Counted from the first letter of the stretch, positions 11,297-31,070 are shown. The stretch: DNA of 64,000 nucleotides from Sulfurimonas sp. (GCA_028687935.1 JAQTZE010000003.1:186001-250000); one strand, 5' to 3'. A program made the numbers and translations. Notes: a model not told the origin generated them from the sequence alone.

Positions 11297-12118
11297 ATGA
11301 AAAATATATATATCACAGACCTTGATCACACTTTTTTACGCAATGATTTGTCGCTGAGCGACTATACAAAACGCATTTGGAATGCGCAAGCACAGAGCTC
11401 TATTGTCGGCGTTGCGACAGCGCGTACTTATCTTAGAACACAGCGTTTTTTAGAGGGTGTGCATATCAATGCGCCGATGATACTTCTTGATGGTGCGCTC
11501 ATTGCCACGCAAGAGAAAAAGATCATCGATACAAAATTGCTCTCAAAAGAGCTTTGCGACGCAGTAATAGACGAGGGTGGGCGTTTTGGGATTTATCCTT
11601 TTGTCCTCTCGCTTGCCGATGATGAGCTAAACGAAGCTTTTTTGCACTCAAGTATCTTAAACGCAGAGCAGAAAAAAGTCCTCGCACGCTACACAAAAGA
11701 GGACAATCTTCAAGAGCAAAAAGAGCTACGAGGGATGGAGAAAAACTTCAAGATCGTTTATATGGGCGAAGAGCAACTGCTGCGTGATTTGGAGCAGCAT
11801 CTCAAAGAGGTTTTTGGCGAAGAGATAAAGTATATCCTCGCACCTGAAGCCTATGTAGGATGCTACTTTCTGACACTCCTGCATCAAAACGCAGACAAGT
11901 CGCACGGCATCCAAAGTGTGAGCGAATATATGGGATTTGATCTGAAAAAATTGACCGTTTTTGGAGACAACTTCAATGACCTTGGTATGTTTGCACTCGC
12001 GGGAACTGCCGTTGCGATGGCAAACGCACAAGAGGGTGTCAAAGAAAAAGCGCATATCGTACTCGCACATACAAACGATGAAGATGGTGTTGCACGTTAT
12101 TTAGAGAGCCTTCGATGA
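11297..12118 (+). CDS. Cof-type HAD phosphatase (subfamily IIB)
   Basis: 273 residues. HAD motif I is DLDHT near the N-terminus, and motif IV is GDNFNDLGMF near residue 220, followed by an AVAMANA segment, as in Cof/YbiV-type sugar phosphatases. These dephosphorylate small phosphorylated metabolites. I start at MKNIYITDLDHT (11297). The gene overlaps the downstream sugar permease by four bases (ATGA), so it probably acts in the same sugar module. Confidence 0.83.
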   Translation: MKNIYITDLDHTFLRNDLSLSDYTKRIWNAQAQSSIVGVATARTYLRTQRFLEGVHINAPMILLDGALIATQEKKIIDTKLLSKELCDAVIDEGGRFGIYPFVLSLADDELNEAFLHSSILNAEQKKVLARYTKEDNLQEQKELRGMEKNFKIVYMGEEQLLRDLEQHLKEVFGEEIKYILAPEAYVGCYFLTLLHQNADKSHGIQSVSEYMGFDLKKLTVFGDNFNDLGMFALAGTAVAMANAQEGVKEKAHIVLAHTNDEDGVARYLESLR

Positions 12119-13383
12119 AACGCAACTCAAATTTGCTCGCCATGAGCATTATCGGCGTTTTATTTTTCATCTTCGGTTTTGTTACTTGGCTCAATGGCTC
12201 ACTTATCCCTTTTCTCAAACTTATCTGCGATCTGAGCGAATTTGAAGCGCTCTTTGTGAGCTTTGCGTTTTATATCGCCTATACGGTGATGGCGTTTCCT
12301 ATGGCCTATGTGCTGGAGAGAACAGGCTACAAAAACGGTATGGCGCTAGGACTCGGCGTGATGGTTATAGGGAGTTTGCTCTTTATCCCAGCGGCACTCA
12401 GCGCTGCGTTTTGGGTATTTCTTATCGCACTTTTTACCCTTGGCACGGGGCTCACAATTTTACAAACCGCATCAAATCCCTATGTCGTACTTATCGGCCC
12501 AATCGAGAGTGCCGCGATGCGTATCAGCATCATGGGACTTATCAACAAAGCGGCGGGGGTTTTCGTGCCCCTTGCGTTTACCGCACTTATCCTCTCCGAT
12601 ATCTCAAACGCAGCGATGCAAAATCTCTCCGACTCTCAGATAGATACCCTCGCTCAGAGACTTATCGTGCCTTATATTATCATGGCGGCAGTACTGAGTT
12701 TTTTGGTACTTTTGGTGAAGTTTTCTTCGCTTCCAGAGCTTGAGTTTGAGAAACAAAACGCAGATGAGAAGAAAAGTATCTTTGCCTTTCCTCGTCTTAT
12801 TTTGGGTGCTTTGGCGCTCTTTTTTTATGTCGGTATCGAGGTTATCGCAGGCGATACGATAGGGCTTTATGCCCAAAATCTCGGGCTCTTAAACGCAACA
12901 GCGATGACTTCGTATACGATGGCGTTTATGGTGCTTGGTTATCTTATCGGGGTTGCGTTTATACCGAAGTTTCTCTCGCAAGAGCGGGCACTTTTGGGTT
13001 CTGCGTTTTTTGGGATACTCTTCTTGCTTGGCGTTGCGTTTGGCTCAAGAGATTCGCATCTGCTCTCAGAGATACTTTGGGGCTGGAGCGGCATCGCTAC
13101 ACTGCCTGATACTCTTGCGTTTGTAGCGCTTTTGGGTCTTGCAAATGCGCTTGTCTGGCCAACGATTTGGCCGCTTGCACTTGAGGGGCTTGGGAGATAC
13201 ACAGCAAAAGGAAGCGCACTTCTTATCATGGCAATTGCCGGTGGAGCACTGCTTCCGCTTATGTTTGGAAAGATAGCGCAGCTGAGTGGAGATATGCAGA
13301 TGAGCTACCTTTTTGGCATCGTCTCTTATATTTTTATCCTCATCTACGCACTTGCGTGGCACAAAAAAACGACTTGGAGATAG
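12115..13383 (+). CDS. FucP/GluP-like sugar:proton symporter (MFS)
   Basis: 422 residues with about twelve membrane helices. The N-terminal FFIFGFVTWLNGSLIPFLK and later ILQTASNPYVVLIGP segments are characteristic of the FHS branch of the major facilitator superfamily (fucose, glucose/galactose importers). It should import a hexose with protons. It lies between a HAD phosphatase and a hexose-phosphate mutarotase in one tight operon. This gene is unusually rich in AAACGCA/TGCGTTT words (about eleven in 1.27 kb). Confidence 0.87.
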   Translation: MKRNSNLLAMSIIGVLFFIFGFVTWLNGSLIPFLKLICDLSEFEALFVSFAFYIAYTVMAFPMAYVLERTGYKNGMALGLGVMVIGSLLFIPAALSAAFWVFLIALFTLGTGLTILQTASNPYVVLIGPIESAAMRISIMGLINKAAGVFVPLAFTALILSDISNAAMQNLSDSQIDTLAQRLIVPYIIMAAVLSFLVLLVKFSSLPELEFEKQNADEKKSIFAFPRLILGALALFFYVGIEVIAGDTIGLYAQNLGLLNATAMTSYTMAFMVLGYLIGVAFIPKFLSQERALLGSAFFGILFLLGVAFGSRDSHLLSEILWGWSGIATLPDTLAFVALLGLANALVWPTIWPLALEGLGRYTAKGSALLIMAIAGGALLPLMFGKIAQLSGDMQMSYLFGIVSYIFILIYALAWHKKTTWR

Positions 13384-13384
13384 G

Positions 13385-14215
13385 ATGATAGCGTACAAAA
13401 AATTTGCAAACGGATTTGAATATATAGAGGTGCAAAACGCAGCCGCAAGCGCAAAAATAGCACTTCAGGGTGCGCATATTTTTGAGTATAAACGCAAGGG
13501 AGAAGAGGATTTATTGTGGCTCAGTAAGAGCAGCGATTTTGAGTATGGCAAAGCGATACGCGGCGGTGTGCCTGTGTGCTGGCCTGCGTTTGGGATGAAC
13601 AATCCTGATTTGCCACAACATGGATTTTCTCGCACGGCGCGTTTCATACTCACGCAAACGCAAGAGGATGAGAGAACTACAGAACTTATTTTTACCCTTG
13701 AAGCCTCAGAGGAGAGCCTCAAAATATGGCCGTATAAATTTCTGCTCACACTCAAAGTCATTGTTGCCGAAAATCTCACGATGGAGCTCACGACAACAAA
13801 CAGAGATACAAAAAGTTTTACACTCACACAAGCGCTTCACAGCTATTTTCCCGTGTCGCATATTGATGATGTGAAGATTCTCGGACTTGAAAATAAACCT
13901 TACTTCAACGCGCTCACTTCACAAACGCAGCTTCAAAATGGAGTTGTGACATTTGACTCAGAGTATGACTGCGTTTATCAGGAAGTGCAAAATGAAATAA
14001 TTTTACAAGACGCAAAACGCAGTATCAAAATCAACAATGAAGGTTCATCAAGCGTCGTTGTCTGGAATCCGTGGACCCTAAAAGGCTCACGCATGAGCGG
14101 CATGAAAGCAGACGCTTACAAGAGTTTCGTCTGTATCGAATCAGCGAATGCCTTTGAAGACTTCAGAGTTTTAGCGCCGAATCAAACACATACGCTCAAG
14201 GCGCACTTCTCTTGA
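13385..14215 (+). CDS. D-hexose-6-phosphate mutarotase (YeaD-like)
   Basis: 276 residues starting one base after the permease stop codon; GGAGATAGG lies just upstream. The aldose-1-epimerase fold is indicated by RGGVPVCWPAFG, QHGFSRTARF, and VVWNPW near the C-terminus, all typical of YeaD-type glucose-6-phosphate 1-epimerases. It interconverts anomers of a hexose 6-phosphate. Its end overlaps the convergent siroheme gene by 20 bases. It contains seven AAACGCA words. Confidence 0.87.
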   Translation: MIAYKKFANGFEYIEVQNAAASAKIALQGAHIFEYKRKGEEDLLWLSKSSDFEYGKAIRGGVPVCWPAFGMNNPDLPQHGFSRTARFILTQTQEDERTTELIFTLEASEESLKIWPYKFLLTLKVIVAENLTMELTTTNRDTKSFTLTQALHSYFPVSHIDDVKILGLENKPYFNALTSQTQLQNGVVTFDSEYDCVYQEVQNEIILQDAKRSIKINNEGSSSVVVWNPWTLKGSRMSGMKADAYKSFVCIESANAFEDFRVLAPNQTHTLKAHFS

Positions 14216-20071: not shown

Positions 20072-21733
20072 ATGGAAGAAGAGGAAGTAAAACTAAACAA
20101 ATATGAGCGTTATAAACTTCGGATGTCCCCTCATGATTTTTTTCCGCAGATTGAGAGCCTTGATTTTGAGAATATTGGAGATGCGGATAGATATTATCTG
20201 CAAGATTTTGGTATCTTCAATGCAGATTTTTCAGAAGAGGCATTTACACTTAGAGCCCGTATTCCAGGCGGCAGAATAAGTGCAACGCAATTTCGCAATC
20301 TTGCAGATATCGTGAAAAAATATGATCTTCGCATTATTATCACAGCCAGAGCAGGTCTACAAATCCAGGGACTTGAGGCTGAGAATATTCTTGAAGTTTT
20401 TCATCAGGTAAACGCGCTTGGTCTGAGCACATGGCAAAGTTTTGGCGATAATGCCCGTAATATAGTCACAGATATCTACGATGGAGTCGGTGCATACGCA
20501 GAGATCGAGAGCTATCCAATCATTATGCAGATGCAAGAGAGAGTCCTCAAAAAACCACGTTATGTGGGTATGCTCCCTCGACGTATCTCGGTTGGCATCT
20601 CAGGTAATAGTGCAAATGTGGTGTCGCTTTTTGCAAATGATCTCTATTTTGCTCTGGCGAAAAAAGATGCGCTATTTGGTTTTAATGTATTTATGGGTGG
20701 CAAAAACTCAAAAGTAGCCCAAGATGCGAATATCTTTTTAGACCCAAGTGAAGTTGCTGATTTTTTTGAAGCATTTATCGAGGCCTTTTTTCTTCACGGT
20801 CTACGTGGATCACGCTCAAATACGCGACTCTATCATCTGCTGAAGTCTATAGGAATGGAGCAGTTTAAAGAATATATAGAAATTGAATATAAAAAACCCT
20901 TCAAAAACGCAGGAGAGTTACTGCTCCAAAAAGCGACATTTGCTCAAACGCAGCAACTTAAAGATAAAAGTTACTCCTATTGTTATCAGACAGATTTCGC
21001 ACGCATCAGCGCTCAAGAGATCTCTATGATTGCAGAATATGCCACAAAACATAATGCTACTATCAGGCTTGGAATCGATCAAAATATCTACCTGTTTGGA
21101 TTAGAAGTGAAACCAACTGCGTTGACGCCTCCAAGAGAGAGTGCGATGATAGTGGCGTGTGCTGGAAGTGAATATTGCCCCTATTCATATTGGAATATCA
21201 AAAATGAGACATCCTATCTGCCGCTTGAGAAGATAAACGAGCATAAGATAGAAGTCGGTTTTTCAGGGTGCACAAAAGGGTGTGCGAGACACCAGCATGC
21301 AGATATCGGACTTATTGGTCTAAGAACAAGTAGTTTCGGTGCAGCAGAAGGCGGTGCAAAACTCTTTTTAGGGGCACAACACACAGAAGGAAAATCTGTA
21401 GCAAGAGCCATCTTCTCCATGGTTCCTCTGCAGCATCTCCACGCACTTTTAAGTCTGATTATCACTTTGTATGAGCAGAGCGGGTATCAGGACTTTGAAG
21501 CCTATACAGCAAAAGTGCTCAATAAATACTCCGAAGATTTTCTTGCTCTGTGGTTTTTGCTCAATCTTCAAACTGGGCAAAGCATCCAACTCATTGCAAG
21601 AGAAGAGAATAGTTTTGCATATGAAAAGAGTTTGCTCGGCGTGCATTTTTTAGGTTTAGAAGTACTCAGTTTTAATGCAGAGAGTTTTAAAAAAGCAGTC
21701 TCGCTGACAAGTAAAAAACTGTGGACTATTTAA
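20072..21733 (+). CDS. Siroheme/4Fe-4S sulfite or nitrite reductase
   Basis: 553 residues, a single-chain NirA/Sir-type enzyme that transfers six electrons to sulfite or nitrite, probably from ferredoxin. The cluster ligands are Cys363, Cys369, Cys400 and Cys404 in CAGSEYC and CTKGC; the ferredoxin-like half-domains with TARAGLQIQG are present. GGAG precedes the start. The siroheme genes at 14.2-15.7 kb should feed it. Sulfite or nitrite cannot be separated by eye; in a sulfur-oxidising lineage assimilatory roles for both are plausible. Its end overlaps the convergent regulator gene by eight bases. Confidence 0.88.
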   Translation: MEEEEVKLNKYERYKLRMSPHDFFPQIESLDFENIGDADRYYLQDFGIFNADFSEEAFTLRARIPGGRISATQFRNLADIVKKYDLRIIITARAGLQIQGLEAENILEVFHQVNALGLSTWQSFGDNARNIVTDIYDGVGAYAEIESYPIIMQMQERVLKKPRYVGMLPRRISVGISGNSANVVSLFANDLYFALAKKDALFGFNVFMGGKNSKVAQDANIFLDPSEVADFFEAFIEAFFLHGLRGSRSNTRLYHLLKSIGMEQFKEYIEIEYKKPFKNAGELLLQKATFAQTQQLKDKSYSYCYQTDFARISAQEISMIAEYATKHNATIRLGIDQNIYLFGLEVKPTALTPPRESAMIVACAGSEYCPYSYWNIKNETSYLPLEKINEHKIEVGFSGCTKGCARHQHADIGLIGLRTSSFGAAEGGAKLFLGAQHTEGKSVARAIFSMVPLQHLHALLSLIITLYEQSGYQDFEAYTAKVLNKYSEDFLALWFLLNLQTGQSIQLIAREENSFAYEKSLLGVHFLGLEVLSFNAESFKKAVSLTSKKLWTI

Positions 21734-22436
21734 GAGAGATCGCGTACCCTTCTCCTTTGATATTTTGGATGAGTGATGGTGATGTTTTTTTTCTCAGACG
21801 GCTTATGAATGCCCGTAGTTTCATATCGCTAACAGCCTCTTGTGGCCAGAGGCTGCGTTTTATACTTTCACTCTCGAGGGCTTTGTTGTCTTCTTTTGCT
21901 TGGAGTAGCAAGAGCTGGACGAATCTGTTTTCTGTTTTTGTGAGGGCGATATAACGCCCCTCCTTATAGAGTGTATTTTTCGTCTGGTTAAACGCAAAGC
22001 CACCTTGAAGTTCTATATTTTTACTCTCTATTTTTTGTGCTATCTCCATGATATAGGCCAGAAGTTCTTCAGGGTCAAAGGGTTTGATAAAGTATTTAGT
22101 CACGCCGATATCGATGGCACTGAGAAGTTTGTCGGTTTCACTAAAGGCACTTAAGATGATGATAGGAAGATTTGGCTCTCTCTTTCTGATCTCCTGCGCC
22201 ATCTCCAGACCGCTGCGTTTTGGCATCATGATATCAGTGATGACGATATCCGGAGCAATTTTTTGAAATTTTTCCAAGCCCTCTTCGCCATCACTCGCCG
22301 TCGTAAAGGTGTAAAAGTACTCTCCTATTGCGTTTTTCAAAAGAGAAGAGAGTTTGGCTTCATCTTCGACAAGCAAAACTTTGAGCTCTTTTAAAACCCT
22401 ATTTTTTATCCAAAATACATTTTTATTACTCGACAT
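21726..22436 (-). CDS. OmpR-family response regulator
   Basis: 236 residues. Receiver domain: VLLVEDEAKL, phospho-acceptor aspartate in VITDIMMPKRSG, and the switch lysine in FIKPFD. The C-terminal winged helix (YIALTKTENRFVQLLL, KLRAFISRLRKK, IKGEGYAI) is of the OmpR type. Start at ATG 22436 gives an 11-base overlap with the histidine kinase gene; a longer frame reading into the kinase is unlikely. It should bind DNA when phosphorylated by that kinase. Targets unknown. Confidence 0.88.
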   Translation of the reverse strand: MSSNKNVFWIKNRVLKELKVLLVEDEAKLSSLLKNAIGEYFYTFTTASDGEEGLEKFQKIAPDIVITDIMMPKRSGLEMAQEIRKREPNLPIIILSAFSETDKLLSAIDIGVTKYFIKPFDPEELLAYIMEIAQKIESKNIELQGGFAFNQTKNTLYKEGRYIALTKTENRFVQLLLLQAKEDNKALESESIKRSLWPQEAVSDMKLRAFISRLRKKTSPSLIQNIKGEGYAISLK

Positions 22437-23643
22437 TTCTCTCCTCCAGAGGGATTTTGATACTAAAGGTCGTTGTGTTTTTCTTGGATTTGACATCGAG
22501 TGAGCCCTTAAATCCTTGCTCACAAATCATCTTTGACATAAAAAGACCAAGACCTGTTCCCTGCGAAGCATGCTTGGTTGTAAAGTAGGGTTCAAAGATT
22601 TTGTAGATATCTTTTTCTTTGATACCGCCGGCATTATCTTCTATCTCGATGAGGGCAAAAGCCTTCTCTTTTTTGACTTTGATATGGATTTCGCGGATTA
22701 AAATACTGTTGAGTACAAAAGCGTCTTTGGCATTTTTGAGTAGATTGATGATGACTTGAGAGAGCTCGTTTGGGATACCCAAAATCATAATGCCCTCTGG
22801 ACTTTGAATATTTATTTTAAGTAACTCTTTGTGAATAAGTGCATCCAAAATATGTACAGACTCCCTGATGCACAGCGCCAAATCAAAATACTCTTTTGCT
22901 TTGTCTGGTTTGAAGAAGTTGGTAAAATCCTCTATCGTATTGGACATATTTTTGATGATGACCTTGCTTTGGTCATAGTAGTCACTTATTTTTTCGCCAT
23001 CCTCACTGAGTGAAGCTTTTTTGATATTAAAGAGGATGAGATTGAGCTCTGTGAGCGGCTGTCTCCATTGGTGTGCGATATTTGCCAGCATCTGCCCAAG
23101 GCTGGCAAATCGTGATTGCCAAAACATCACTTGCTGCTTGAGCTCATTTTTTCTGATCTCCTCTTGGACTCTGGCTTCGAGTGTGCGGTTGAGCTCTTGG
23201 AGCTCTTTTGTCTTTTCTTCTATCTTTTTTGCGAGATTTGTGTTGAGCTCTTCAAGCTCTCTCTCTTTTTTGAGGAGTTCTTCTTTGTAGAGTACCTCTT
23301 TGGTGACGTCGTATCGGATAGCCACATACTCCGCGATTTCGCCATTGGCTGAGAGGATAGGGATAACGGTCGTATTGACATAAAACGCAGAGCCATCTTT
23401 TGCTCGGTTTTTGACTGTACTTTTGTAGATTTTTTTCTTTTTGATAGTTTTCCACAGCTTGGCAAAAGTTGCAGCGTCCACGTCAGGATGGCGTATGATA
23501 TTATGGTTTTTGCCAAGGAGTTCAGCGCGTGTATAGCCTGAAATAGCACAAAACTCATCACTGACAAAAGTGATGATACCCTCAGTATCGGTCTTGGAGA
23601 TGATGTTGGTTTTTTCTATGGCTTCTTTGTATTGTTGCAGCAT
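22426..23643 (-). CDS. Soluble PAS-domain sensor histidine kinase
   Basis: 405 residues without membrane segments. An N-terminal PAS domain (about 10-125, with GYTRAELLGKNHNIIRHPD, the Aer-like type), a coiled coil rich in Glu/Lys/Leu (about 125-175), a HisKA-like segment with the phospho-histidine in IAHQWRQPLTELN, and a HATPase domain with EDNAGGIKEKD and GTGLGL. It probably senses a cytoplasmic redox or ligand signal. It overlaps and precedes the response regulator gene, forming a cognate pair. Confidence 0.9.
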   Translation of the reverse strand: MLQQYKEAIEKTNIISKTDTEGIITFVSDEFCAISGYTRAELLGKNHNIIRHPDVDAATFAKLWKTIKKKKIYKSTVKNRAKDGSAFYVNTTVIPILSANGEIAEYVAIRYDVTKEVLYKEELLKKERELEELNTNLAKKIEEKTKELQELNRTLEARVQEEIRKNELKQQVMFWQSRFASLGQMLANIAHQWRQPLTELNLILFNIKKASLSEDGEKISDYYDQSKVIIKNMSNTIEDFTNFFKPDKAKEYFDLALCIRESVHILDALIHKELLKINIQSPEGIMILGIPNELSQVIINLLKNAKDAFVLNSILIREIHIKVKKEKAFALIEIEDNAGGIKEKDIYKIFEPYFTTKHASQGTGLGLFMSKMICEQGFKGSLDVKSKKNTTTFSIKIPLEERNVE

Positions 23644-23718: not shown

Positions 23719-24708
23719 TTAAGGCAGAGCTATTTTTGAGAGCCCTTTATGTGCATCATACGCCAAACGCATCACACCTACAGCGTAGTTTGACGAGTTG
23801 TTGTAGCGCATGATTTTTTGGACATAATCACGTGTGTATTGGAGTTCTGGTTTGTCGCAAGAGAAGCAGTTATAGATTTTTTCGCCTTGCTTATTCTCGG
23901 CATAGACAAACGAGGCTTTTTCGTTTTCAAAATCAAAGGTGTACCAATCATCTTCAATCGTGTCCATATCGCCTACTTGATCCCAATCCATAAGCGTGTT
24001 CCACTCCGATCTTTGTGAGAGAAAATAGCTCGCTGAGACGATAGCATCACTCATATCACTCAAATCACCTATCTCACTTTTATAACCCTTTGCGTAACTG
24101 AAGTTATTGGGCATAAACTGAGGAATGCCTACTGCACCTGCATAAGAGCTTTTGAGGTTACACTGCTCAGGAGCGAGCTCTTTTTTGTAGCAGTAGGTGA
24201 TGACCGAGGCCATGTTTGTCTTGCTCATCTTTTTGAGCCACTTTTCTCTCGCTGTTGCTTCGCCGATACGTGTCACGATGGTGTTGAAGACGATAAAAGC
24301 ATCATGTTTTGGCTCGATTTTACCAAGGCGGGTCTCTTTCATCATGATTGCGGCAATGATTTCACGATTGACGCCGTAAGTTTTTTCCGCATAGTCATAG
24401 ACTTCGCTGTACTCATGGAGATTTTCTACGATGAGATGAACATATTGGACGAGACTGTTATTTGCTTTTTTCTCATTTTTAGCGTGTTGCTGTATCTCTT
24501 TTGGCTGAATGGCGTTCCATGCAGCTTCATCAAATTGCTTTGTCTTGACTAAAGAGAGTAAAAATTTGTTGGCATATTCATACGATACACCCTCTTTGAC
24601 GACGCTCTCGCAGACCTCTTCATAGTCGTTGTTGATGAGCTTACAGTTGGTGTACTCTGCCATGAGCGAAGTGCCTAGCAGTAAAAATGCCACGAATAAT
24701 TTGTTCAT
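23719..24708 (-). CDS. Secreted lytic murein transglycosylase (MltB/SLT type)
   Basis: 329 residues with a signal peptide (MNKLFVAFLLLGTSLMA). The transglycosylase domain has the catalytic glutamate in IMMKETRLG and the substrate groove segment SYAGAVGIPQFMPNNF, as in MltB-like GH103 enzymes. It cleaves peptidoglycan to 1,6-anhydroMurNAc products in the periplasm. It is the last gene of the recycling operon, overlapping murU by four bases, and makes the substrate for the other enzymes in the operon. Confidence 0.87.
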   Translation of the reverse strand: MNKLFVAFLLLGTSLMAEYTNCKLINNDYEEVCESVVKEGVSYEYANKFLLSLVKTKQFDEAAWNAIQPKEIQQHAKNEKKANNSLVQYVHLIVENLHEYSEVYDYAEKTYGVNREIIAAIMMKETRLGKIEPKHDAFIVFNTIVTRIGEATAREKWLKKMSKTNMASVITYCYKKELAPEQCNLKSSYAGAVGIPQFMPNNFSYAKGYKSEIGDLSDMSDAIVSASYFLSQRSEWNTLMDWDQVGDMDTIEDDWYTFDFENEKASFVYAENKQGEKIYNCFSCDKPELQYTRDYVQKIMRYNNSSNYAVGVMRLAYDAHKGLSKIALP

Positions 24709-25358
24709 ATTTCTCTCCGATTTATTGCTTCAAGTCTCTGTGGTGTGCCGATATCATGCCAGATTCCATGATAGAGCTCAGCACTTAACATTCCCTTTTC
24801 GCTCATCTCTCGCAAGAGTGGCGCAAGGGCAGATTTTCCCTCTGGCAGGTTTTTAAATAGTGTTGGATTATAGTAGCCTATGCCTGAATAAGTGTATTTG
24901 ATTTGAGCCTCATTGCAAAGTAAAGAGCCATTTAAGCCAAAATCACCTTTTGGGTTATGCTCTGGATTTGGTACAAGGATAAGATGGGCGAGTTTGCCAT
25001 CGAGTGCAAACGCAGCGTCAAAATCATAGTCACAAAAAACATCGCCATTGACGAGTAAAAAGGTATTATCTCCCAAAAGAGGCAATGCTTTGATAATACC
25101 GCCAGCACTCTCAAGCGCGCCACTCTCTTGCTCGTCTGAATAGTGTATCTTTACACCCCATTTTGCGCCATCACCAAGTGCTTGGGGTATTTTGTGCCCC
25201 AAGTGCGCGATATTGATGATGATCTCATCAAAGCCTTTTTTGGCAAGTTTTTCTATATGCCAGATGATAAGCGCTTTGCCATGGACTTCAAGAAGCGGCT
25301 TTGGCAGGCTATCTGTGAGCGGTCGCATCCTCTCTCCACGTCCTGCGGCAAGTATCAT
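24705..25358 (-). CDS. murU: N-acetylmuramate-1-phosphate uridylyltransferase
   Basis: 217 residues. The N-terminal ILAAGRGERMRPLTDSLPKPL is the nucleotidyltransferase signature; short size and pairing with an AmgK-type kinase indicate MurU, which makes UDP-MurNAc from MurNAc-1-phosphate. The start ATG overlaps the amgK stop codon (ATGA). It bypasses MurA/MurB and returns recycled sugar to wall synthesis, a route known from Pseudomonas. Confusion with glucose-1-phosphate or mannose-1-phosphate transferases is possible without the context. Confidence 0.82.
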   Translation of the reverse strand: MILAAGRGERMRPLTDSLPKPLLEVHGKALIIWHIEKLAKKGFDEIIINIAHLGHKIPQALGDGAKWGVKIHYSDEQESGALESAGGIIKALPLLGDNTFLLVNGDVFCDYDFDAAFALDGKLAHLILVPNPEHNPKGDFGLNGSLLCNEAQIKYTYSGIGYYNPTLFKNLPEGKSALAPLLREMSEKGMLSAELYHGIWHDIGTPQRLEAINRREI

Positions 25359-26302
25359 CGCTTTGATGTGAGCTCCTCGAGAAGTTGTGCGAGGTGTTGT
25401 GTCTCTTCATATCTCTTCGCAGTTTCCAAGACATAGTGTAGCGTGAGCGGAATATCTTTGAGATATCCCTCTTTGCCGTCACGAATATGTAGACGCGAGA
25501 AGACTCCGAGGACTTTGATATGGCGTTGCAAGCCCATAAAGTCAAACCACTTAATAAAGGTCGCATCCTCTACGTTTAGAGCTTTTTTATCCCGAAACGC
25601 AAGAACCAAAGCTTCGACATCTTCGCGTTTGTATGCGATATAGCAGTCCTTGAGCAGTGAGACCAGATCATAGGTAATCGCCCCACACATCGCATCTTGA
25701 TAGTCAATCACGCCAATCGCTCCATCGCGCTGAATCATGATATTGCGCGAGTGATAATCACGGTGGACAAAAACACCTTGAGGCTGAGAGAGGACGACTT
25801 CGCTGATTGCGTTTAGAGCTTCTGCGAGAATTTTCTGCTGCGTTTCATCCAGTGTGTGAGAGAGTTTTTTCTCCAAATACCAGCTCCGCATCAAGTCCAT
25901 CTCAAAGTGTAAAAAAGCTTTGTCATAGAGCGGCAGAGCAGTTGCATCTGCGTTTTGCATCTTGAGTATTGCATCGATTGCGTTTGTATAGAGTTCTTTG
26001 AAATTTGTCTCATTCAAGACATTGAGATAGTGAATATTGCCAAAATCTTCAAGGATCAAAAAACCCTCTTCAAGGTTTTGCTCATATATTTTCGGTGCGT
26101 TTACTCCTGCGTTTAGGAGTCTTTGGGTGATATCAAGAAAGGGTGCGAGAGAATTTTTCTCAAGCGAAGAGTCCATCAGCAAAACAGTTTTCTCACCCGA
26201 TGTGAGTCTGAAATATTGTCTAAAACTTGCATCTGCAGAGGCTATCGCTAGAGTGAAATCTTTGTAGGGAGTCGTTGCCAACCACGCTTGTATCTTATCC
26301 AT
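25355..26302 (-). CDS. amgK: N-acetylmuramate/N-acetylglucosamine anomeric kinase
   Basis: 315 residues of the aminoglycoside phosphotransferase fold. The catalytic loop is VFVHRDYHSRNIM, followed by GVIDYQDA for metal binding. AmgK phosphorylates MurNAc at C1. It is immediately followed by murU and preceded by anmK with 8-base and 4-base overlaps, which makes the assignment much safer than the fold alone. The small-molecule kinase would be cytoplasmic. Confidence 0.84.
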   Translation of the reverse strand: MDKIQAWLATTPYKDFTLAIASADASFRQYFRLTSGEKTVLLMDSSLEKNSLAPFLDITQRLLNAGVNAPKIYEQNLEEGFLILEDFGNIHYLNVLNETNFKELYTNAIDAILKMQNADATALPLYDKAFLHFEMDLMRSWYLEKKLSHTLDETQQKILAEALNAISEVVLSQPQGVFVHRDYHSRNIMIQRDGAIGVIDYQDAMCGAITYDLVSLLKDCYIAYKREDVEALVLAFRDKKALNVEDATFIKWFDFMGLQRHIKVLGVFSRLHIRDGKEGYLKDIPLTLHYVLETAKRYEETQHLAQLLEELTSKR

Positions 26303-27377
26303 ATATACCGCCTAAAATCGAGTTTTTTTGTGCACCTGTGACGTTTTTGAGATTTACCTCTTCACGGTGGATGCGTTTGTAGCCCAGCCATGCAAATGCC
26401 ATCGCTTCGAGTGCGTCGGAGTTGATGCCGTACGCATCACTAGGAGCGACTTTGATAGCGCAAAGCTCATGGAGTCTTTGCATCAAAAAGCTGTTTTTTG
26501 CTCCCCCGCCGCAGACGATAAGCAACTCTGATTTTGCAGACAAAACGTCATGTGCGATGCTTTGCGCTGTGAGTTCGAGGAGTGTGGCTTGCATATCTGG
26601 CTCTTTTATGGTGTTAAAAAGTGGCAGATGCAGTCCGAGCCAACTCTCGTTGAAGTACTCTCTGCCCGTACTTTTTGGCGGTATTTTTTGAAAATATGCA
26701 TCATCCAAAAGTTTTTCTAAAAGCTCTTGATTTGGCGTACCGCTTTGTGCAAATGCTCCGTCTCTGTCGTAGTTTTCACCTGTGCATTTGCGTATCCACA
26801 TATCCATGAGCACATTTCCAGGACCCGTGTCCCATCCTTTGAGCGTATCACCCAAAAGGGTGATATTTGACATGCCGCCTATGTTGATGACGGCTGTGTT
26901 TTTGCCAAGATTATGAAAAGCAAAGTCATGAAACGCAGGAGCAAAAGGTGCGCCCTGACCGCCATTTGCGATATCCATACTGCGAAAATCAGAGACAACG
27001 CTGATACCAGTTTTGGCACTCACAATATTGGGACAACCCATCTGCAAAGAGAAGGCAAAGGTTGCGTTTGGTTCATGCCAAAGTGTCTGACCATGCAGAC
27101 CAATCGCAGTAATATCGCTTGCGTTTATCTTTTTTTCCATCATAAATCTATTGACGGCGCGGGCGAAAAGATGGCCGAGTTTGGCATCGAGTGTGCCTAC
27201 TTTTTTGAGCGTGACCACGCCTGAAATGGTGCTAAGTATCTCATCTTTGAGCTCTCGTGGGAAAGGGTATTCGTGGGAGTGGATGAGTTTGCACGCGAGT
27301 GCATCTATCTCACACAAGACCAGATCGATCCCGTCCATGCTTGTTCCCGACATCACACCTATATAAAGTTCACTCAT
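26295..27377 (-). CDS. anmK: Anhydro-N-acetylmuramic acid kinase
   Basis: 360 residues from ATG 27377, preceded by GGGGAA. Opens the 1,6-anhydro ring of anhMurNAc and phosphorylates it to MurNAc-6-phosphate. Motifs: GVMSGTSMDGID at the N-terminus (ATP binding), DTGPGNVLMD and VCGGGAKN. An upstream in-frame codon was rejected because it lies deep inside the transporter gene. It overlaps the transporter stop by eight bases. Its usual follow-up enzymes MurQ or MupP are not in this window. Confidence 0.95.
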   Translation of the reverse strand: MSELYIGVMSGTSMDGIDLVLCEIDALACKLIHSHEYPFPRELKDEILSTISGVVTLKKVGTLDAKLGHLFARAVNRFMMEKKINASDITAIGLHGQTLWHEPNATFAFSLQMGCPNIVSAKTGISVVSDFRSMDIANGGQGAPFAPAFHDFAFHNLGKNTAVINIGGMSNITLLGDTLKGWDTGPGNVLMDMWIRKCTGENYDRDGAFAQSGTPNQELLEKLLDDAYFQKIPPKSTGREYFNESWLGLHLPLFNTIKEPDMQATLLELTAQSIAHDVLSAKSELLIVCGGGAKNSFLMQRLHELCAIKVAPSDAYGINSDALEAMAFAWLGYKRIHREEVNLKNVTGAQKNSILGGIYG

Positions 27378-28839
27378 TTTTCCCCGCCTGCATGATGATA
27401 AACGCAACAAAAGAACCTGTGAGCATTTGCCACGAGAAGCCGATTTCGATGCCAAAGATATAAGGTTGCATGAGCAGCACGCTCAAAAAACCGCCACCAA
27501 GTGCAAGTGGAACGGTCGTCGCATTGCCGCGTTTTGTGAATATTGCCGCAAAATAGACACCCAAAAGTCCCGTGTAGGCAAAAGTCATCACGCCCAGAGC
27601 AAAGTTGATAAGCGAGAGCTCACTAGAACGCTGCCAAAAGTAGCTTACCATCGCCATAAGGGATAAGATCAGAGCAAAAAAGAGGACTGCGTTTTGAGAG
27701 GCTTTGACGAAATGCATCTCAGATACTTCGCCGCGTTTGAGCCTCCATGGTTTGTAGATATCTTCGATGGCGACGGAGGCCATAGCTCCCAAAACAGAGT
27801 TCGCACTTGAGAGTGCCGCCGCGATTGCGCCAACGGTGACAAGCCCGCGAAGACCATCAGGCATTTCGTTTAAGATATAGTACATAAAGATAGTGATCTG
27901 TTCCCCATCAAAGCTCTGCACGACCGCACTTTGCTGATAAAAGACAAACAAAAGTGCACCGATGGCGAGGAAGATAAGCACGACGGGAATGGTGAGTGAA
28001 ACAGCAAGCAGAAGAGACTTTGCCGCCTCTTTTTCGTTTTTACAGCTAAGCACCCGCTGTGTCATATCCTGATCGAGTCCAAAAGCCGCGATATTGAGCA
28101 AAAGCCAACCTGTGAGAAGGCCAAAAATATTGAATTTTCCATCCATTGATGTATCGATAAACGCAAGCTTATCGTGCTCGTTTAGAACCTTCCAAATATC
28201 TACATGCGCAAGCGAATAGTAGAGGAATATAAGTACCGCAAGTGCTGCGACAACGTAGGTGATGGCTTGGATGACATCGCTGAGGATGATGGATTTTATC
28301 CCGCCAAAATAGGTGTAAGCCAGAGCACCGAGCATCAAAATAGCGATAGAGAGAGCGAGGTGCACAAAGGCAACATCTGCAAAAAGTATCATGGAGACAG
28401 CAATAGCACCGATGTAGAGTCTCGCCCCGCTTGCCATGACACGACCTACCAAAAACATGATACCAGCTTGGCGTTTTGCCGCTGCACCGTAGCGTTTTTC
28501 GAGGAGTTCATAGACGGTAACGGCTTGCATAGCGTAGAACTTCGGCAGCAGTACAAACGCAACAAAAATCCCTGCCAAAAGAGCTGAGAAGTAAAAACCT
28601 ATAAAAGTAAAATCTTTGGCATAGGCATACTCAGGAACACCCAAAAAGGTCGCAGCCGACTGGCTTGTCGCCAAGACGGAGAGGGCGACGGCAAACATTG
28701 GCATGGAGTTTTTGCTCACAAAATATTCGCGTGAACTCTCGATTTTTGCTTGTGAGAGCATATAAGATGAGAGGGCTAAAATGGCGAAATAGCCTAAAAA
28801 TACCAACCAATCAAGGGATGAAAAACTCGTTTGCATCAT
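27370..28839 (-). CDS. Sodium:solute symporter (SSS family), likely for anhydro-muropeptide sugar
   Basis: 489 residues, about thirteen membrane helices, with the SSS patterns SSREYFVSKNSMPMFAVALS and ATSQSAATFLG near the N-terminus and GARLYIGA in the middle. It sits between the secreted NagZ-AmpD fusion and anmK, with overlaps on both sides (ATGA and eight bases). I infer that it imports anhMurNAc or the anhydro-disaccharide product released in the periplasm, taking the place of AmpG. Family and membrane nature are clear; the substrate is inference. Confidence 0.8.
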   Translation of the reverse strand: MMQTSFSSLDWLVFLGYFAILALSSYMLSQAKIESSREYFVSKNSMPMFAVALSVLATSQSAATFLGVPEYAYAKDFTFIGFYFSALLAGIFVAFVLLPKFYAMQAVTVYELLEKRYGAAAKRQAGIMFLVGRVMASGARLYIGAIAVSMILFADVAFVHLALSIAILMLGALAYTYFGGIKSIILSDVIQAITYVVAALAVLIFLYYSLAHVDIWKVLNEHDKLAFIDTSMDGKFNIFGLLTGWLLLNIAAFGLDQDMTQRVLSCKNEKEAAKSLLLAVSLTIPVVLIFLAIGALLFVFYQQSAVVQSFDGEQITIFMYYILNEMPDGLRGLVTVGAIAAALSSANSVLGAMASVAIEDIYKPWRLKRGEVSEMHFVKASQNAVLFFALILSLMAMVSYFWQRSSELSLINFALGVMTFAYTGLLGVYFAAIFTKRGNATTVPLALGGGFLSVLLMQPYIFGIEIGFSWQMLTGSFVAFIIMQAGKNE

Positions 28840-30509
28840 GGTCTTTTTAGTCCCAAATCTGCTACATCTTTACGCACACTCGCCATAAATTGAACTCCTG
28901 GATCGACTTTGGCGGTGCGATAATTTGCATCTTTTTCCAGCCACAATGGCGTGTTTTGCATCTTCAGGTATTCATAATGACCAAGGAGATACTCGATATT
29001 TGGATATTTTTGTTTGAGATAGCGCACGAGACGGATATTTGCTTCGACTTGCGCCTGTGTGAGATCTTCTGCTTTGTTATCCTGACCGCCGATATTTTCT
29101 ATCCCGATTGCAGAGTAGTTGAGCCCGATAGTGTGACGCGCCATGAGGTTTTCTGGCATGAGTTGGTAGATACTTCCATCACGATTGACCAAAAAATGGG
29201 CTGAGACATTGAGTGCGCCTGCGCTTTGGATATATTTGCGCCCCTCTACGATCTCTTCAGCTTTGAGACGCTCAAAACAGAGCTCAAAATCCATGATACT
29301 TGTCCAATGTAACACGATAGATTTTGGCTCGATATCGATGTTGCTGACATTCATATCGTAATGCGTTTTGATGTACTCTTTAGAGAGATCGATGCGTTTT
29401 TGGGAGAAGTGTACGGGTTTTTGGATGATTGCGTTTTTGGTGTGCAGATTTGCTATACGCTCATTTGCTTCTTGGATGCGTTTGTGCGCTATTGCACCAC
29501 TTTGCACAGCGTCATAGATAGTCTGGATGATATCTTTGGTACTATGAAACTCAAGCTGATTTCCAAAGAGAAGAATATCGACACCCGAATTTATAGCGAG
29601 GACAACGCGCTCTTTGAGACTATAATGCTTTGAAATCGCCCCCATCTGCATATCATCACTTATTAAAACGCCGCGGTATCCGAGTTGCTCACGCAGAAGT
29701 TTTGTGTTGGTATTATAGGAGAGCGTTGCGGGATACTCCGCGTCAAGATGGGAGTTGAAGACATGTGCGGACATGATCATATCCACTGCGTTTGTCTGGA
29801 TAAAGTGCTTGTAGGGTTCGAGCTCCCTCTCGCTCCAAGTGTTGCTCACATCGACATAGCCTGCGTGTGAATCGCCCAAAGAAGAGCCATGCCCTGGGAA
29901 ATGTTTGAGTACACTGATAATGTTTTCACGCGCTAACTCTTGCATAAAGATAGCTGCGTATGTATTGACCGCTGCCTCGTCGCCGTATGAGCGTTCAAGC
30001 CCGACAATGACACTGTTTTTTGGCTCAATTGCCAAATCTACGATAGGGGCAAAATCACAATTGATACCGTTTTCTTTGAGCATCTTCGCCTGCGTTTTAT
30101 AGATTTCGCGTGCTTCTTCTTGGGGGAGTGCCGCAATGCGTTTTGCGGAAGGCACTTGTGCAAATCCATAGCTAGGTTTGAGTCGAGCAACTTTTCCGCC
30201 CTCTTGGTCTATAGAGATAAGAAGTGGTTTTGTAGCATAAGTTTTGAGCGTAGCTGTGAGCGTTTGGAGTTGCTGTGGTGAAGCGATATTTTTGCCTTGC
30301 GTTTTGTCACGATAGAGCCTGTCAAAGAGGATAACACCGCCGAGTTCATAGTTTTGAATATCTTTGACGATGGAGCTGTTGGCATCCACTTCAAAACCTT
30401 CAAAACCCACAACAAGCATATGGCCTATCTCTTTTTTGAGGCTCTCTTCATCGATAGTGGCTGCGTTTAGAGAAAAAAATGTGAGAAAAAGTAGGGTAAT
30501 AAATTTCAA
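28836..30509 (-). CDS. Secreted NagZ-AmpD fusion: beta-N-acetylhexosaminidase plus N-acetylmuramyl-L-alanine amidase
   Basis: 557 residues. A signal peptide (MKFITLLFLTFFSLNA) is followed by a GH3 NagZ domain (about 25-350): KHFPGHG at 202-208, DSH at 213-215, and the nucleophile in SDDMQM (Asp285). A second, Amidase_2 domain (about 390-545) has zinc ligands consistent with His401, His511 and Asp536, and Glu471 in the active site. One polypeptide could thus remove GlcNAc and the stem peptide from anhydro-muropeptides. E. coli does this in the cytoplasm with separate enzymes; here the signal peptide puts it in the periplasm. It is the first gene of a six-gene operon. Confidence 0.88.
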   Translation of the reverse strand: MKFITLLFLTFFSLNAATIDEESLKKEIGHMLVVGFEGFEVDANSSIVKDIQNYELGGVILFDRLYRDKTQGKNIASPQQLQTLTATLKTYATKPLLISIDQEGGKVARLKPSYGFAQVPSAKRIAALPQEEAREIYKTQAKMLKENGINCDFAPIVDLAIEPKNSVIVGLERSYGDEAAVNTYAAIFMQELARENIISVLKHFPGHGSSLGDSHAGYVDVSNTWSERELEPYKHFIQTNAVDMIMSAHVFNSHLDAEYPATLSYNTNTKLLREQLGYRGVLISDDMQMGAISKHYSLKERVVLAINSGVDILLFGNQLEFHSTKDIIQTIYDAVQSGAIAHKRIQEANERIANLHTKNAIIQKPVHFSQKRIDLSKEYIKTHYDMNVSNIDIEPKSIVLHWTSIMDFELCFERLKAEEIVEGRKYIQSAGALNVSAHFLVNRDGSIYQLMPENLMARHTIGLNYSAIGIENIGGQDNKAEDLTQAQVEANIRLVRYLKQKYPNIEYLLGHYEYLKMQNTPLWLEKDANYRTAKVDPGVQFMASVRKDVADLGLKRP

Positions 30510-30578
30510 ATAAAGCCTTTGTATAAAAGTTTGTTTTTATCTATAGAAGTAAGCATCCATCATTCCAAAAGAGAGAAA

Positions 30579-30649
30579 GAGTGCCGCGCTTCGTTCGGAG
30601 TGACAATCCTTTCGTCATTGCGAGGAACGTAGTGACGCGGCAATCTTTT
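30579..30649. repeat. Pair of inverted CGTCATTGCGAG-type dispersed repeat units
   Basis: TGCCGCGCTTCGTTCGGAGT (from about 30582) and CGTCATTGCGAGGAACGTAG (from about 30613) belong to a repeat style widespread in bacterial genomes, in opposite orientations. Together they can fold through GCCGCG/CGCGGC. The second unit reaches into the next gene and encodes its last residues. Base composition here is GC-richer than the surroundings. Copy number in the genome cannot be seen. Confidence 0.6.
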
Positions 30650-31070
30650 CCATCACACGCTCTAGCAACATCTCTATCTCTTCTTCTGCTTCAAAGTGCC
30701 CAGATAGCACTTTAAATATATAGAAGTTTTTGATAGCTGGCGAGTGAATAACTGCGTCATAAAACCCAAAAGAGTCATCTTCTGGACTTGTATATATTGA
30801 AGAATCTACCTGCAAGAATGACCCTTCTTCATCTATAGAACAATCCTCACAAGCCCCGATGTAGAGATAAATATCCTCATCTGTGATGTCATAAAGATTG
30901 ATAAGTGCCTGAGTTGCAAGCCTTGCGTTTTGGACACCGCTATCACTAAAGATAAGGTGCATCGCATCGTTATTAAAAAGAGAAAAATTTCCCGCTTGCG
31001 TTTTGTGAAACTTATAACTATCGACAAAGGCGTGGGCTGCATTTTTGAGGGTGCTTACAATATAAATCAT
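30615..31070 (-). CDS. Hypothetical protein with weak nucleoside-phosphorylase-like pattern, 3' end formed by a repeat
   Basis: 151 residues. I do not recognise a function. The order GNFSLFNND, then SGVQNARLATQALIN, then YLYIGAC loosely resembles the start of PNP/MTAN-fold proteins (LxxSGxGxxNAxxAT...YxNxGxCG), but later catalytic motifs are absent and the protein is short for that family. The last ten codons (KIAASLRSSQ) lie inside a dispersed repeat, so the original C-terminus may be lost. It may be a degenerate paralogue. Confidence 0.55.
   Translation of the reverse strand: MIYIVSTLKNAAHAFVDSYKFHKTQAGNFSLFNNDAMHLIFSDSGVQNARLATQALINLYDITDEDIYLYIGACEDCSIDEEGSFLQVDSSIYTSPEDDSFGFYDAVIHSPAIKNFYIFKVLSGHFEAEEEIEMLLERVMEKIAASLRSSQ

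Follow-up and report, generated by a model that had tools for sequence, protein, structure and literature searches.

The question raised by this locus is which molecule crosses the inner membrane when a Gram-negative bacterium recycles its cell wall with hydrolases that are predicted to be secreted. In most studied Gram-negatives, recycling starts with the uptake of entire muropeptides, and in the cytoplasm these double as signals that induce β-lactamase. The stretch of DNA analyzed here (the window, 64,000 nucleotides of Sulfurimonas sp., GCA_028687935.1 JAQTZE010000003.1:186001-250000, positions being counted from its first letter) derives from a 2.58 Mb assembly that is 100% complete, and it contains a minus-strand run of six ORFs reading from 30509 to 23719 with successive overlaps of 4, 8, 8, 4 and 4 nt. 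A preliminary description had named six overlapping genes, and both the ORFs and their families, as judged with Pfam and NCBIfam, bear it out. The first gene (28836–30509, with a TTG start at 30509) encodes a signal peptide, a GH3 domain of the NagZ-type β-N-acetylglucosaminidases and an AmpD-type Amidase_2 domain (Pfam E-values 2e-62 and 6e-20), with catalytic KHFPGHG/DSH and zinc-ligand motifs in place. It is followed by a transporter (27370–28839, ATG at 28839) that belongs to the SSS family (TC 2.A.21), the Pfam SSF profile scoring 90.8 bits against a cut-off of 22.8 (E = 1e-25). The next three genes encode AnmK (26295–27377, ATG at 27377; Pfam AnmK, E = 6e-131, and 459 bits against an NCBIfam cut-off of 367), the anomeric MurNAc/GlcNAc kinase AmgK (25355–26302, ATG at 26302; Pfam APH, E = 7e-29, and a strong NCBIfam match, E = 9e-79, that is yet under the cut-off) and the MurNAc-1-phosphate uridylyltransferase MurU (24705–25358, ATG at 25358; NTP_transferase, E = 9e-25, and 290 bits against a curated NCBIfam cut-off of 250). 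The last gene (23719–24708, ATG at 24708) encodes a secreted, MltB-like lytic transglycosylase (SLT_2, E = 1e-30) with the catalytic-Glu motif KETRLG and no named equivalog. AnmK, AmgK and MurU, the three enzymes by which the anabolic recycling pathway is recognized, are thus present together.

Close relatives hold the identical six genes in identical order; among named relatives Sulfurimonas sp. STC_122 is nearest, with 86% for the fusion and 91% for the carrier. A search for the gene set in other Campylobacterota, as the preliminary description had proposed, returned the cluster from dozens of genomes of Sulfurimonas and Sulfurovaceae, and the gene order is therefore not due to chance. The same description had called the combination unusual, which is only partly so: this is the normal arrangement in AnmK-bearing Sulfurimonas and Sulfurovaceae and periplasm-first processing has precedents, but the combination is new in a Gram-negative. 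The GH3 domain matches widely, though none of the GH3-matching loci of other phyla carried a second cluster gene, and for that reason we do not claim the cluster outside the Campylobacterota.

As to its surroundings, a PAS histidine kinase and a response regulator are encoded directly downstream (21726–23643, minus strand) and are possibly linked to regulation of the cluster. On the other side, a 151-residue protein that matches nothing in Pfam or NCBIfam (30615–31070, minus strand) is kept just upstream of the fusion in several Sulfurimonas and is possibly a neighbor rather than a cluster member. A stretch resembling a dispersed repeat (30560–30640, GCGTCACTACGTTCCTCGCAATGACG and on), single copy within the window, lies in the 3′ end of the gene for this protein and the spacer towards the fusion. 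Beside the Sulfurovaceae clusters a secreted L,D-transpeptidase/YafK-like protein recurs, as judged by eye at nine loci.

The fusion protein has an N-terminus (MKFITLLFLTFFSLNA↓A) that looks like a signal peptide. Its GH3 domain reaches 177 bits on the NCBIfam NagZ model (below the cut-off of 207) and has among its nearest structures those of a bacterial GH3 β-N-acetylglucosaminidase (6k5j) and of the secreted NagZ of Bacillus subtilis (YbbD), with cytoplasmic NagZ structures ranking behind; the NagZ-type motifs KHFPGHG and DSH are found in 22 of 22 cluster orthologs. The Amidase_2 part keeps HWT, GHxE and DPG, which we take to be the zinc-ligand motifs of AmpD-type enzymes, and with 35 versus 143 bits on the AmpD equivalog it is AmpD-like by fold family only. 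In three Sulfurimonas lacking the fusion, the stand-alone secreted amidases have DDPS for DPG and HHT as the start motif, and apparently form a lineage separate from the fused domain. That the scheme requires the fusion was considered and rejected, many relatives having separate NagZ and amidase genes with both products secreted. In other Sulfurimonas NagZ stays a neighbor of the SSS gene, and the secreted amidase has its own gene elsewhere. In another family, f6, placed in the Sulfurovaceae on the strength of matches between its GH3 loci and named Sulfurovum contigs, the amidase usually adjoins the SSS gene and the GH3 gene is unlinked, yet its product bears a signal peptide or lipobox (a GH3 search of one f6 genome gave no match). 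A hydrophobicity test of N-termini detected a signal-like stretch in all 22 cluster NagZ proteins, 19 of 21 f6 GH3 proteins and 20 of 22 stand-alone amidases, and in 0 of 79 AnmK, AmgK and MurU proteins; some amidases carry lipoboxes. Given these stretches in GH3 proteins and amidases, fused or separate, both steps are predicted to be extracytoplasmic in almost every carrier genome, which extends to relatives with separate genes what the preliminary description had predicted from signal peptides for this one.

A functional AmpG or cytoplasmic ampD and nagZ had been named in that description as grounds for abandoning the scheme. The sole GH3 and the sole Amidase_2 domain of the genome reside in the same signal-peptide protein, and cytoplasmic counterparts were not found. 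The AmpG family model TIGR00901 had no match in 41 genomes (the source and 40 relatives), the same search being positive in E. coli and Caulobacter controls, and it matched none of the eight MFS proteins of the source genome, the one in the window being NagP-like. Among 349 Campylobacterales genomes, 21 have AmpG-family matches with E<1e-15, and AnmK/SSS is present in a single one of these; distant TIGR00901 matches elsewhere in the order fall far under the model cut-off. AmpG was tested by this one model, outside which peptide ABC systems fall, and an unrelated carrier replaces AmpG in Agrobacterium (PMC9790009), both of which would favor an undetected AmpG-like or ABC transporter (such as YejBEF-YepA of Agrobacterium) as main importer, with the SSS protein carrying an unrelated solute. 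Muropeptides imported in that manner would, however, require a cytoplasmic NagZ and amidase, none of which was found in the genome, and SSS and AnmK are kept together even when unlinked, and we regard such an importer as very improbable.

The association of SSS with AnmK was examined across the 349 Campylobacterales genomes, with proteins of 54–100% identity counted as true SSS orthologs. SSS orthologs occur in 45 genomes and AnmK in 46; both are present in 45, SSS alone in none and neither in 303, the single AnmK genome that lacks an SSS ortholog being a draft of about 240 contigs. In 8 of the 45 genomes the two genes are separated by over 5 kb or fall on two contigs, and close linkage alone thus does not explain the co-occurrence. 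Fisher's test gives an extreme value, but one that ignores shared ancestry. This near-perfect co-occurrence independently supports import of anhMurNAc, and the best reading of the SSS carrier is that of an anhMurNAc importer, the transport itself being predicted.

That the carrier takes a fragment that is larger or of another kind (GlcNAc-anhMurNAc, anhMurNAc-peptide or MurNAc), and is a functional analogue of AmpG or MurT, we consider unlikely, the known substrates of SSS-family proteins being small solutes. Precedents come from Tannerella forsythia, in which MurT, described as a member of the sodium symporter superfamily, imports MurNAc (PMC5790795) and AmpG imports disaccharides (PMC7670621), and many relatives of the source genome have the amidase, not GH3, adjoining the SSS gene. 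Against this, AnmK acts on free anhMurNAc and matches the SSS carrier in occurrence almost genome for genome, almost every carrier genome is predicted to secrete both hydrolases, and the source genome lacks a further GH3 or Amidase_2 domain by which processing could be completed inside.

The best structural relative of the proposed anhMurNAc importer is SiaT, the Na+/sialic acid symporter of Proteus mirabilis (5NV9, E = 5e-38), which also carries an acidic N-acetylated sugar and holds the sialic acid carboxylate with Ser60, Thr63 and Arg135 (PMC5931594). Ser60 and Thr63 are common to both proteins (S61 and T64 of the carrier) but do not discriminate substrates, since both positions are kept in a 27%-identical paralog as well. 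Of the Na2 site, A57 (SiaT Ala56) is found in 44 of 44 orthologs, and this carrier shares the serine pair aligned to SiaT Ser342/343; SiaT Asp182 aligns with D188. The two proteins differ in that SiaT Gln82, which holds the glycerol tail of sialic acid, is F82 here, and that Arg135 aligns with A136, the carrier having arginines at neighboring TM3 positions instead: R133, three residues before, and R140, four after. Both arginines are invariant in the 44 SSS orthologs and missing from the 27%-identical paralog, and together with F82 they would suit an acidic sugar that has no glycerol tail, a match that is suggestive only. An AlphaFold model of the carrier (9 sequences, pLDDT 47) was too poor to place R133 and R140 and was discarded.

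Two further steps, the uptake of GlcNAc and the removal of phosphate from MurNAc-6-phosphate, may be accounted for by a plus-strand operon (11297–14215) that in the source genome lies ~10 kb from the recycling cluster. It encodes a HAD-IIB Cof-type phosphatase (11297–12118), an MFS transporter of the NagP N-acetylglucosamine type (12115–13383) and an aldose 1-epimerase-like protein (13385–14215). In several Sulfurimonas relatives the HAD-NagP operon directly follows the recycling cluster, and in f6 the HAD gene is there alone. The HAD-IIB gene is present in 46 of 46 AnmK genomes (in 30 of them ≤10 kb from AnmK) versus 59 of the 303 others, and its occurrence in those 59 indicates other roles or other subfamilies. 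MupP was also sought within the HAD_2 family, with no convincing match: the best HAD_2 protein gives 85 bits on the MupP model against a cut-off of 359 and fits phosphoglycolate phosphatase better, and no HAD with HAD_2-type motifs occurs in any cluster neighborhood. Co-occurrence was also the argument that led to MupP itself (PMC5371407), and it is by this logic, and with no good MupP visible, that the HAD-IIB protein is put forward as MurNAc-6-phosphate phosphatase in its place, a candidate for which we see the chances as slightly short of even. The NagP-type protein matches NF046060 with E = 8e-153 (509 bits, below the 625-bit cut-off), and rather probably takes up the GlcNAc that GH3 sets free in the periplasm.

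Taken together, gene content and genome comparison make it likely that this Sulfurimonas possesses a complete, AmpG-independent, sugar-only and periplasm-first anabolic recycling pathway with the SSS protein as anhMurNAc importer, in which the enzyme activities, the SSS substrate and the HAD and NagP roles are inferred. The MltB-like enzyme would free GlcNAc-anhMurNAc-peptides, from which, in the periplasm, the secreted fusion would strip GlcNAc with its GH3 domain and the stem peptide with its Amidase_2 domain. Free anhMurNAc would then enter with Na+ through the SSS carrier, and GlcNAc through the NagP-type carrier. In the cytoplasm AnmK would yield MurNAc-6-phosphate, the phosphatase (candidate HAD-IIB, 11297–12118) would convert this into MurNAc, and AmgK and subsequently MurU would produce MurNAc-α-1-phosphate and UDP-MurNAc. 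Neither MurQ nor Mpl was found above cut-off in the source genome, in which the matches remained at SIS-domain (weak) and Mur-ligase level, respectively, and with no such MurQ, AmgK–MurU is the only visible fate of the sugar.

A cluster that mainly scavenges the wall fragments of other bacteria as a nutrient, with self-recycling secondary, would be in keeping with the secreted hydrolases, the lipoprotein nature of some amidases, the sugar symporters and the NagP-type GlcNAc importer in the window. It fits poorly with the return of the sugar to UDP-MurNAc by AmgK and MurU and with the missing MurQ catabolic route; moreover, no outer-membrane uptake gene is seen in the cluster, and relatives are largely chemolithoautotrophs (PMC4584964, PMC12029903). 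We deem scavenging as the main function quite improbable.

The proposed recycling pathway resembles that of Pseudomonas (AmpG-NagZ-AmpD-AnmK-MupP-AmgK-MurU) in leading through AnmK, AmgK and MurU to UDP-MurNAc and in the absence of MurQ (PMC5371407). Unlike Pseudomonas, this Sulfurimonas has no AmpG, no clear MupP (with the HAD-IIB candidate instead) and no Mpl that we could find, and it has a secreted, fused NagZ/amidase and an SSS carrier. In B. subtilis, with its secreted NagZ and AmiE and its MurP PTS, the fate of the muramic sugar is catabolic, via MurQ. The Sulfurimonas GH3 domain is close to the secreted YbbD structure, and the order proposed here, with GlcNAc and the peptide removed in sequence outside the cytoplasmic membrane before the muramic sugar is imported, is that known for B. 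subtilis (cited in PMC6987092). B. subtilis differs in being Gram-positive, in using PTS import and in having an unfused NagZ and amidase. For Rhodothermus marinus, PMC6987092 proposes a layout with no AmpG, no cytoplasmic NagZ or AmpD, a NagZ thought to be periplasmic and AnmK inside; there the transporter is not identified, and the passages on this layout describe no fusion or operon. T. forsythia (MurT-MurK-MurQ) is likewise a Gram-negative that takes up a free muramic sugar, through a carrier placed in the sodium symporter superfamily and, elsewhere in the same paper, in the MFS (PMC5790795), but this is MurNAc scavenging by an auxotroph with AmpG, without AnmK and with a catabolic MurQ, whereas the proposed Sulfurimonas substrate is anhMurNAc, the route of which the T. 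forsythia authors left open. The open-licence literature that we searched names no SSS carrier of anhMurNAc and describes no recycling in Sulfurimonas; muramic acid also goes unmentioned in a review of prokaryotic SSS proteins. The novelty lies in finding this combination in a Gram-negative and in assigning the importer by co-occurrence evidence; periplasm-first processing and the carrier type have precedents.

More tentatively, and with the balance somewhat against it, the cluster SSS proteins may constitute a dedicated Na+/anhMurNAc symporter family and the linked HAD-IIB a second, unrelated type of MurNAc-6-phosphate phosphatase, giving with NagP a Gram-negative route that passes nothing but monosaccharides through the inner membrane and does without reuse of the stem peptide via Mpl. 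If true, such a monosaccharide-only route would uncouple recycling from muropeptide signaling, and an anhMurNAc carrier outside the PTS type (MurP) would be named, in answer to the question from the T. forsythia work. Sulfurimonas and Sulfurovaceae are abundant at vents and redoxclines, and the pathway, if true, would hint at how they regain wall sugar and perhaps withstand fosfomycin. The prediction singles out one gene as a long-missing type of transporter.
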